From Cristatella mucedo (lineage: Eukaryota; Bryozoa; Phylactolaemata; Cristatellidae): 64,000 nt of DNA. This document shows, piece by piece, positions 4,519-36,145 of the stretch. The notes below the pieces were generated by a model. The model was not told the DNA's origin, ran no database searches, and saw only the letters and a list, made by a program, of their open reading frames with translations. Location: contig WPIO01000002.1 in NCBI GenBank assembly GCA_009760855.2, forward strand, positions 9,580,001 through 9,644,000, read 5' to 3'. Made by a program: the position numbers and the translations under genes. Position 1 is the first letter of the stretch. Every line of letters starts with the position of its first letter.

Positions 4519-4919
4519 CTAGAAGCCTCCAAACTGCTGGTAGAGCATGGGATAGAATGACTGCAGAGCCATCGCCTGCTGCGCGGGCGGCAGCTGCTGC
4601 AGCTGCTGCATTTGCTGCAGCTGCTGCGGCGTCAGCGGCGGCAGCGGAAGGCCACCGCCGCCGCCGAAACCGCCCAGGGCGCCGTTGCCCGACACGCGCC
4701 GGTTCTGGACGGCGGCGCCGAAGTTTGGCGGCAAGGGCAGACCTAGTGGACTCTCCAGCAGCTGATTCGACGTCCGGCCGAGGCTGTACACGCCCGGCGG
4801 CAGCTGCGGTATCTGCAGCTGCTCGGTGAACGAGACCGTCTTCTTCGGGGCAGGGCCGCCGGGCGCCGAGCCCCAGGCCGTTTGCCCCATGGACAGCTTT
4901 CTGCCCATGGCGTCCGTGC
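4519..4919 (-). CDS. M1 terminal exon 8: Gly/Pro/Gln-rich tail
   Basis: The acceptor GCGCGGTTGCAG opens 132 codons. They include GRKLSMGQTAWGSAPGG, PKKTVSFTEQLQIPQLPPGV, YSLGRTSNQLLE, a Gly run, LTPQQLQQMQQLQQLPPA and the end MLYQQFGGF, then TAG. The frame is also open upstream to an ATG at 4944, but splicing fits the phase of the previous exon. KKTVSF resembles a basophilic kinase site or short linear motif. Confidence 0.65.
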
Positions 4920-35600: not shown

Positions 35601-36145
35601 AAGTTGAATCTCCCACGAATCCTAAGCTCGAACAGGCTTATATCTCTGTCCATTGAGTCTGCCTTGGGAACTGTCAGAAGATGTGTGAAAAAGTAACCGG
35701 ACTATCTCAGCAGTCACTCTAGGCCTTGCTCAAGGCAATGCTCACGGAACCGGTTCTTTCGATTTCTCGCGTTTCGAAATCAAAATTGCTCAACCAGTCT
35801 CTTCAAAATGGCACCTTTTCCCAGACACATAAAGTGACCAACTAAGCAACTGTACATTTCCCGGCATCAAGTCACCCATTGCTACAAGGAAATCTCTGCG
35901 ATCCGTAAGATTTTCCAGCGCGTGCTAATGACGTGATTTTTAAGTAAATGAGATTCTCGGGGTGGATTTTATAACGTTTGTCACAGCAAAAAATTCACTT
36001 AGAACTGACCATGCCCAACAAGTTGTGTGGAACCTTTCGCGTGATAGTCGGAGATAAAGAGATCGCTTGAGTAGCGCATCGCAGCAACACTCACGAGAGG
36101 CTCCGACTACACTTTCGAGGGTAGAGCCTCGTAAGGACACAGCCA
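20473..36145 (-). CDS. Uncharacterised single-pass membrane protein M2, 3' part, seven exons
   Basis: I do not recognise this protein. Exons 36145-36095, 35881-35795, 35670-35545, 33415-33299, 29780-29631, 24703-24503 and 20651-20473 each have plausible splice sites. All six introns between them are phase 1, giving about 302 continuous codons to a TAG stop. The order is an ectodomain of about 125 residues, a cysteine-dense module (C-x9-C-x-C-x2-C-x2-C-x-C), an Ala/Ser/Thr-rich linker, one transmembrane helix of about 27 residues, and a 60-residue tail with eight consecutive histidines. Symmetric phase-1 exons are typical of shuffled extracellular domains. The signal peptide exon was not found and should lie between 36.2 kb and the Rab6 3' end near 38.7 kb. 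A LINE/SINE cluster, CT and TA repeats sit in or near its introns. It could share a 5' part with unit M1. Confidence 0.55.
21100..21245. repeat. AT-rich low-complexity island
   Basis: Almost pure A/T with repeated AAATATTTATAAAT-type motifs, in clear contrast to the GC-richer flanks. It lies in an M2 intron. Confidence 0.8.
21950..22410 (+). mobile_element. LINE fragment, decayed
   Basis: The frame [15 protein letters not shown] is the end-of-RT motif. It is followed by a 3' UTR with CTGCCTATGCATGC and a degraded tail. Confidence 0.6.
23280..23440 (-). mobile_element. SINE-A-like copy, diverged
   Basis: Begins with (TAA)n then TGTGTAGAGCACTAAGAGCA and AGGCGCTTGATAAATAGCCA; the head is degraded. 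Confidence 0.5.
23631..23684. repeat. Inverted repeat, 12-bp arms
   Basis: TTTCGCCTCGAG and CTCGAGGCGAAA are perfect inverted arms around a GC-rich loop of about 26 bases. Confidence 0.85.
23909..23955. repeat. (GA)n microsatellite
   Basis: A pure GA dinucleotide run of about 47 bases. Confidence 0.95.
24503..24703 (-). CDS. M2 exon f: linker and transmembrane helix
   Basis: The exon runs from GGCTCTTTTGTAG to AAAAA|GTATGAG. It encodes a Ser/Ala/Thr-rich stalk ([14 protein letters not shown]) followed by [19 protein letters not shown] and ALFIFVAV, a clear membrane-spanning helix. Phase 1 on both sides. Confidence 0.65.
25505..25605 (-). mobile_element. SINE-A or LINE tail fragment
   Basis: TGTGTAGCGCTCTAGGAGAA and CAGACGCTTTACGACTGG are the shared hairpin tail. 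Too short to tell SINE from LINE. Confidence 0.5.
27194..27330 (+). mobile_element. SINE-A copy
   Basis: GCGGTTAAGGTGCTCGCCCC, GTGGGCTCGAGCCCTGAGG and the tail GCGCCTGAATAGAGATTTAG...GGGGCGCTATAC define a full copy. Confidence 0.82.
27357..27495 (+). mobile_element. SINE-A copy, tandem to the previous one
   Basis: Same orientation and structure as the copy ending at 27330, with point changes (B box GTGAGCTTGACCCCC). The two are about 27 bases apart. Confidence 0.82.
28417..29245. repeat. About 830-bp (CT)n compound array in M2 intron
   Basis: CT dinucleotides are interrupted by GGTCTCTCTCTC, TGTTTCTGCCTCTGCC and TCTTTCTTTC variants. A block of about 150 bases with the same order of variants occurs twice (about 28837-28990 and 29000-29140). 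On the M2 sense strand it is (GA)n. Confidence 0.95.
29631..29780 (-). CDS. M2 exon e: cysteine-dense extracellular module
   Basis: After CTCGCTGCAG the frame reads [14 protein letters not shown], then [19 protein letters not shown] and an Ala/Gln/Ser/Thr linker. Six cysteines lie within 21 residues, which implies a disulfide-bonded knot or metal-binding loop. The donor is ACAGA|GTACGC, of moderate strength. If it is not used, the frame ends at a TGA about 40 bases later. I recognise no named family. Confidence 0.6.
30797..30972 (+). mobile_element. SINE-B, best full-length copy (tRNA-derived)
   Basis: A tRNA-like head has an A box (GCGCACTAGGTAAGG context) and a B box (GGTTCAATTCC) separated by the perfect hairpin CACGACCTCGG/CCGAGGTCGTG. 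It is followed by the body CTTCTGTCGCTATACAAAAG and a TTTATTTATT tail. Other copies define the family. Confidence 0.85.
31080..31140 (-). mobile_element. SINE-A tail fragment
   Basis: CCTAAGAGAACTGAACCTCG and GGGCCCTTTACAGATGCC match the shared hairpin tail. Confidence 0.45.
32059..32247. repeat. (TA)n microsatellite, about 190 bp
   Basis: An almost pure AT dinucleotide run interrupted once by GTCTA near 32206. Shorter TA runs follow at 32352-32377 and 34090-34127. Confidence 0.95.
32380..32525 (-). mobile_element. SINE-B copy, diverged
   Basis: Contains GCAGAAGAGCCTTAACGG, CGTCCACTGCAGGAATCGA and CACGACCCGGGTCGTG, following a short (TA)n. Confidence 0.7.
32888..33094 (-). CDS. Possible cysteine-rich exon, frame uncertain
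   Basis: Within this interval an exon-like block (about 33030-32896, TTACACGAGACAG to GCAGAG|GTAGTC) is open in two frames. One frame is cysteine-rich (spacing C-x7-C-x8-C-x4-C-x6-C-x-C). The other, phase 1, contains the hydrophobic [13 protein letters not shown]. Neither frame agrees with both M2 neighbours, so I leave it unassigned. Confidence 0.15.
   Translation of the reverse strand: MIIFWPNKQYKFPNRRGTHSDIPLTRDRCRVGGSRSCGFVAPAARCDLDFCPVSAKSCACAVRLAEVV
33299..33415 (-). CDS. M2 exon d (117 nt, phase 1-1)
   Basis: The acceptor CACTTTTTTAG and donor CCAG|GTACGA are both good. The 38 full codons include [17 protein letters not shown] and [14 protein letters not shown], an acidic, proline- and aromatic-rich secreted-type sequence. 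Phase agrees with exons on both sides. Confidence 0.6.
33765..33890 (-). mobile_element. SINE-A copy, diverged
   Basis: ATTCATTTGCATAGCACTCC and CAAGAAAACTTAACC followed by a degraded head. Confidence 0.65.
34090..34127. repeat. (TA)n microsatellite, short
   Basis: A pure TA run of about 38 bases in an M2 intron. Confidence 0.9.
35241..35483 (-). CDS. Open frame with one hydrophobic helix inside M2 intron
   Basis: This 80-codon frame reads [13 protein letters not shown], then [20 protein letters not shown] followed by ATRYRL, and ends at TAA. The composition looks coding and contains one membrane-helix-like stretch with basic residues after it. It does not fit the phase-1 pattern of its neighbours. 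A strong GTGAGC donor-like site overlaps its beginning. It may be an alternative exon, a separate small gene or chance. Confidence 0.2.
   Translation of the reverse strand: MSETMRDNAWKSLFDTERTANYDGSYFMGATFFSCAVALEILLFFLATRYRLIGPAPTNGKRPCFACLRASRNVVPPRMK
35545..35670 (-). CDS. M2 exon c (126 nt, phase 1-1)
   Basis: A good pyrimidine-rich acceptor (CACATCTTCTGACAG) opens a 41-codon segment including [18 protein letters not shown] and [10 protein letters not shown]. The beta-strand/helix pattern is loosely reminiscent of a SEA domain, but I would not assign it. The donor GTTAAAG is weak. Confidence 0.5.
35795..35881 (-). CDS. M2 exon b (87 nt, phase 1-1)
   Basis: The acceptor is TTCCTTGTAG and the donor GTTGAG, which is non-optimal. 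The encoded segment begins [18 protein letters not shown] and contains one cysteine (GKRCHFEET). It joins exon c across a 124-base intron in frame. Confidence 0.45.
36095..36145 (-). CDS. M2 exon a (51 nt, phase 1-1)
   Basis: A short symmetric exon lies between TTTTTTGACCAGATCAG and a strong GTGAGTG donor. It encodes [16 protein letters not shown]. The exon is small and rests mainly on splice-site quality and phase. Confidence 0.4.

Follow-up and report, generated by a model that had tools for sequence, protein, structure and literature searches.

Downstream of a minus-strand Rab6-type GTPase gene, the genome of the bryozoan Cristatella mucedo carries two cassettes on the same strand, in each of which a single transmembrane helix leads into a tail and a stop. 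We refer to the upstream cassette, together with the exons that precede it, as M2 and to the downstream one as M1. In a judgement that stands about level, we slightly favour two same-strand genes in tandem over a single gene with alternative 3' cassettes. M2 would then be a five-exon gene for a type I membrane protein of 254 amino acids with a cleaved signal peptide, a short ectodomain that is acidic and Tyr-rich and contains six cysteines, a Ser/Thr/Ala stalk, one helix and a short His-rich tail. M1, if expressed, would be another single-pass protein, with a cytoplasmic tail that is long and Pro/Gln-rich. Its promoter and first exon(s) would be separate from those of M2 and lie in a GC-rich stretch at ~17.4-16.5 kb, and it would insert N-out via its helix, without a cleaved signal peptide. 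The open frames, phases, helices and stops can be read from the sequence; the splicing and topology, the separate start of M1 and the expression of either protein are inferred. Whether neighbouring gene or alternative ending, the arrangement would be an ordinary one.

The locus and its setting

The window is the whole stretch of 64,000 nucleotides analysed here, and all coordinates refer to it. A preliminary description of this DNA had placed the two cassettes at 24703-20473 and 16228-4519, and we find both at about these positions. LINE-like reverse transcriptase fragments flank the locus on both sides. In the window, no tRNA was detected by ARAGORN and no Rfam family was found. The neighbouring gene provided the control exons:

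50376 to 39542, minus strand: Rab6-type GTPase gene with 7 coding exons; Ras family, E 1.1e-59 (Pfam)

The Rab6 intron after ...YNVKQ (~39804) opens with CAG/GCAAGT and is a GC-AG intron, which has no donor score among the controls. The acceptor of Rab6 exon 4 was taken at 42765 (score -0.3, 87th percentile). The Rab6 sequence submitted to Pfam carried V at one exon junction at which the DNA encodes I.

M2 is predicted to be a type I membrane protein

Five minus-strand exons join in frame from an ATG to a stop, and the predicted product has 254 amino acids. All four introns are in phase 1, which bears out the preliminary description in its claim that the M2 exons are connected in frame through such introns. 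Splice percentiles are ranks among all AG and GT of the region, and both splice and codon scores derive from generic metazoan/human tables rather than from tables trained on C. mucedo:

35222-35096, minus strand: exon 1, ATG and signal-peptide-like stretch, ending in phase 1; donor 98th percentile; codon z 2.7
33415-33299, minus strand: exon 2, phase 1-1, Tyr/Asp-rich ectodomain; acceptor 81st, donor 99th percentile; codon z 1.2
29780-29631, minus strand: exon 3, phase 1-1, six-cysteine segment; acceptor 100th, donor only 79th percentile; codon z 1.2
24703-24503, minus strand: exon 4, phase 1-1, Ser/Thr/Ala stalk and transmembrane helix (hydropathy 3.07); acceptor 91st, donor 94th percentile; codon z 3.6
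20642-20473, minus strand: exon 5, cytoplasmic tail with eight histidines, stop; acceptor 84th percentile; codon z 0.0, fifth of six frames

A simple hydropathy scan finds in the ATG exon, which has a phase-1 donor, a 9-residue hydrophobic window of 2.48 behind a basic N-terminus. The single helix is followed by basic residues (the tail starts KRGFRFQLR), a tail and the stop. Taken together, these features make a type I topology for M2 reasonably supported. The M2 splice sites (79th-100th percentile) are within or somewhat below the Rab6 controls, for which six acceptors rank at the 69th-100th and five donors at the 97th-100th percentile. Codon z is 0.0-3.6 in M2 and 0.7-3.5 in the seven Rab6 exons, so that percentiles and codon scores overlap the control ranges but are lower on the whole. 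The model is weakest at the 29631 donor and in the tail exon, with its low coding score.

The hexapeptide GALVNP occurs in both exon 4 and exon 5, with all six codons differing between the copies. An exact repeat of at least 6 residues arose in 4 of 5000 shuffles of the M2 protein, and we take the repeat as a post hoc sign that the frames of both exons may be read. An AATAAA lies 3' of the M2 stop at 20230; since this strand carries 20 AATAAA between 37 and 3 kb, it is weak evidence.

Immediately upstream, an ATG-led frame of 76 codons with one hydrophobic stretch (35471-35241, minus strand) ends 18 bases 5' of the M2 start codon. It has a codon z of 2.1 (on 35459-35241) and no Pfam match, and is possibly an upstream ORF or a product of chance.

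The M1 anchor and tail

In M1, a second anchor (helix at ~16111-16049) is followed by its own tail and a stop at 4519. The candidate exons are as follows:

16164-16039, minus strand: anchor exon, best acceptor 16164, phase 1-1; donor 99th percentile; hydropathy 2.36; codon z 0.6, third of six frames (on 16228-16039)
11263-11072, minus strand: juxtamembrane tail exon, VRKCMKKK...; acceptor 94th percentile; donor 11082 (phase 0, 98th percentile) or 11072 (phase 1, 91st); codon z 2.3, third of six frames (11263-11082)
10971-10710, minus strand: doubtful exon, Pro/Thr/Ala-rich; donor 7.0, 100th percentile; acceptor 61st; codon z -3.2 in this frame, +3.2 in another
4919-4519, minus strand: last exon, KTVSF, Gln-rich stretch and stop; acceptor 94th percentile; codon z 4.4, first of six frames

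The basic sequence VRKCMKKK comes after the helix across an intron and leads into Pro-, Ser- and Gln-rich sequence. Joining 11072 to 4919 keeps the frame without the doubtful exon. The last exon has the top codon score among the exons tested, and its KTVSF is similar to a PP1-docking motif, which it may represent.

Two acceptors compete for the anchor exon. The one at 16164 is in phase 1 and at the 84th percentile; the one at 16228 is in phase 0 and at the 53rd. In favour of the latter, no other CAG separates it from a long CT tract, a feature that earns no credit in the short acceptor score used here. Long (GA)n/(TA)n microsatellites occur at 16292-16457, 28416-29231 and 32060-32247, and the one at 16292-16457 fills a possible intron directly upstream of the M1 anchor.

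The preliminary description had joined fifteen exons of the locus in one in-frame chain, of which exon d and the exons between 19315 and 16228 were guessed in our reconstruction. The core of this observation stands, but not the chain in full: the acceptor at 16228 is outranked by that at 16164, and two further exons are unneeded or weak:

36145-36095, minus strand: 51 nt; acceptor 90th, donor 97th percentile
19315-19106, minus strand: acceptor 74th, donor 91st percentile; codon z 2.1, first of six frames

The exon at 36145 can be linked in phase 1 with the acceptor 35224 (76th percentile), a join that places 17 residues ahead of the M2 ATG; it is unneeded because the next exon has its own ATG directly 5' of the signal peptide. 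For the exon at 19315, the better of two phase-1 donors (19106) was taken as the 3' end. Its codon score is no worse than those of real exons, and no second copy of 19106-19315 was found within the window. It is weak, unneeded for the frame, and probably not an exon. An exon-chain optimiser run on 20472-4400 returned an overfitted chain of 20 exons through repeats, which we discarded.

A possible separate 5' end for M1

ATG exons that combine a hydrophobic segment with a donor were sought by a simple hydropathy scan rather than with a trained predictor, and the matches carry no chance rate. In 38000-33420 the scan returned four matches, namely the M2 signal peptide and three nested ATGs (36618-36555) inside a repeat (36403-37712); in 33298-24704 there was no match. 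Between the cassettes (20472-16165) the sole match, at 19648, sits in a dispersed repeat (19538-19710) that matches six other places in the window, some along part of its length only. The scan of 20472-16165 thus gave no signal peptide for M1, as the preliminary description had noted, and M1 alone lacks there the N-terminal signal peptide of a type I protein.

Two candidates for a start of another kind lie closer to the anchor:

17380-17365, minus strand: candidate M1 start, ATG, ATGTCAGCCGCGATCG/gtgaga, phase 1, donor score 2.9, in the GC-rich 16.5-18 kb
16647-16481, minus strand: candidate 5' coding exon of an independent M1, phase 1 to 0; donor 99th, acceptor 62nd percentile; codon z 1.3

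The exon at 16647-16481 joins the acceptor at 16228 in frame, and both acceptors are poor (62nd and 53rd percentile). From these candidates, a non-secretory, independent M1 start near 17.4-16.5 kb is possible. The region at 16.5-18 kb has a GC content of 0.53-0.57 and a CpG o/e of 1.18-1.35, and is akin in GC to the Rab6 5' region (0.59 and 0.55 at 50.5-51.5 kb). As a promoter sign, GC-richness is unreliable, because it is absent from the M2 5' region (35-36.5 kb) and present around inner exons too. A bacterial promoter scan of 16-18 kb was set aside as uninformative for animal DNA.

Just upstream of the M2 anchor exon, the stretch 24500-27000 reaches a GC content of 0.68 and a CpG o/e of 1.47. 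No exon or domain was recognised there; it could be an internal promoter.

Helices and phases expected by chance

Mean hydropathy over 21 residues is 3.07 for the M2 helix and 2.36 for the M1 helix. Across the six frames of the window there are 31 hydrophobic peaks of at least 2.0, mostly in microsatellites. The M2 helix belongs to the strongest of these, but three plus-strand peaks outside any model (13027, 61799 and 61978) reach 2.90-2.98. In twenty block shuffles, the averages were 7.0 peaks at or above 2.0 and 1.45 at or above 2.4. Given these counts, neither helix is proof by itself, and the helices count only together with their surrounding frames.

Open AG-GT intervals of 45-450 nt with phase 1 at both ends were counted in 37000-15501 under lenient splice cut-offs. 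The real sequence holds 127, and 20 Markov replicas of the same region have 83.5 (sd 14.8); for intervals of at least 100 nt the counts are 75 and 36 (sd 10.3). This excess fits the presence of some real exons, to which repeats may add, and dozens of such intervals arise by chance.

Two genes in tandem or one gene with two endings

The preliminary description had left two readings side by side, one gene with alternative anchors and two tandem type I proteins, and both survive, the second without a signal peptide for M1. Two genes are favoured by the completeness of M2, which is in frame with its own ATG, stop and AATAAA, by its splice and codon scores, which overlap those of the Rab6 controls though lower on the whole, and by the existence of candidate 5' exons for M1 in or near a GC/CpG-rich region that is like the Rab6 5' region in GC. 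Against two genes stand the acceptor of the candidate 5' exon, which is at the 62nd percentile and requires the 53rd-percentile acceptor at 16228, and the lack of an M1 signal peptide in the scan. Also in favour of two genes, the cassettes show no similarity in anchors or tails (BLASTP, best E 61), and are therefore not a recognisable duplicated exon pair.

A single gene with alternative 3' cassettes is a less probable but serious contender. Downstream of exons 35222-29631, which encode the M2 signal peptide and ectodomain, splicing would choose between the M2 anchor and tail (24703-20473) and the M1 anchor (16164-16039) with its long tail. The two isoforms would share an ectodomain and differ in their tails for signalling or sorting. 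A skip from M2 to the M1 anchor had been proposed through the exon at 19315, a route that is weakly supported and unnecessary. In terms of frame the skip itself holds up, since the acceptor at 16164 is in phase 1 and the M1 anchor can thus replace the M2 anchor in frame, which makes the idea mechanically easier than previously stated. Exon 29780-29631 ends in phase 1, and its join to 16164 is open through to the M1 stop; moreover, the region between the cassettes offers no M1 signal peptide outside a repeat. Both anchor exons (24703-24503 and 16164-16039) are phase 1-1, but such compatibility is cheap and often expected by chance. The splice would also have to cover 13.5 kb from a weak donor (29631, 79th percentile), with a stop and an AATAAA in between and a possible separate M1 start. 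Stated in full, this would be one orphan receptor gene with two isoforms, in which a shared signal peptide and small Cys-rich ectodomain are joined to unrelated anchors and tails (a short His-rich tail in one isoform, a long Pro/Gln-rich tail with KTVSF in the other) by a choice of two complete 3' terminal cassettes. We consider this version rather unlikely. If the one-gene reading is true, the locus would be a clear case of anchor and signalling tail being switched under one ectodomain; if not, it holds two single-pass membrane proteins of no recognised family, mainly of annotation interest.

It is improbable that M1 is not protein-coding as drawn, or that its exons belong elsewhere and its GC-rich open frames are partly due to chance. 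The M1 helix alone is within shuffle expectation, the codon z of its exon is only 0.6, 10971-10710 scores higher in another frame, and phase-compatible open intervals are common. The last exon, with its codon z of 4.4, argues against this, as does the position of VRKCMKKK right behind the helix, where a stop-transfer junction would have its basic run; the intron between the two has sites at the 99th and 94th percentile. Most improbable of all is one two-pass protein, in which the M2 anchor exon would be spliced to the M1 anchor and the M2 tail skipped. The frame of this join is open, but the M2 tail exon would be left unexplained and the basic residues behind the M1 helix would come to lie outside the cell, in conflict with the positive-inside rule. 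Two genes in tandem thus remain our preferred reading.

Relatives and comparison with known systems

Like the preliminary description, we recognise neither product: no Pfam family scores above cut-off for M1 or M2. M1 has no Pfam match, and for M2 the family TMEM_230_134 was rejected (E 0.19, 12.3 bits against a cut-off of 26.8). We found no paralogue of either in the animal's own genome (572 Mb, 688 contigs), where all three M1 matches and five of the eight M2 matches are their own exons; the other three M2 matches have E values of 0.04 to 0.05 and stops inside. Among solved structures, M1 has no match at E up to 0.1. M2 has 58 at E up to 1, of which 57 overlap its natural His run (residues 229-236). 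We read these as engineered His tags and rejected them as relatives, including the best, sodium channel subunit beta-2 (E 0.00013), whose match (residues 166-236) consists of helix and His run. The one other match has an E of 0.47, leaving no credible M2 relative among solved structures. 'Orphan' as applied to M1 and M2 accordingly refers to relatives in their own genome, Pfam and solved structures only. With its signal peptide, small Cys-containing ectodomain, one helix and short tail, M2 is like ordinary type I membrane proteins of unknown family, but it has neither a Pfam match above cut-off nor a credible relative among solved structures.

Under the one-gene reading, the locus would fall into a known kind, to which the two transmembrane variants of Dscam exon 17 belong. 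Exon 17 of Drosophila Dscam1 comprises two mutually exclusive transmembrane exons, which are arrayed in tandem and have homologues in other insects (PMC1397879). The likeness, if the one-gene reading is right, would be two alternative anchor exons behind one ectodomain; the difference is that the M1 and M2 anchors are dissimilar and each has its own tail and stop. The fly variants, by contrast, share the exons downstream of them. Furthermore, unlike in Dscam, no Ig or FN3 domain was recognised in M1 or M2 by Pfam. Among the literature matches listed for alternative anchors, none was recognised as this locus.

Repeats in the window

The LINE-like fragments apparently belong to one family:

8878-9693, minus strand: LINE-like fragment
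36629-37773, minus strand: LINE-like fragment
44325-45212, minus strand: LINE-like fragment
13941-14345, plus strand: LINE-like fragment, apparently of the same family as the minus-strand pieces

Reverse transcriptase was recognised by Pfam in two of the four pieces scanned. The shared 3' tail of the family also occurs alone, for example at 19538-19710. A further dispersed repeat with a tRNA-like motif (CACGACCTCGG..CCGAGGTCGTGGGTTC), which we take to be probably a SINE, is present at 30827-30905 and 36323-36401.
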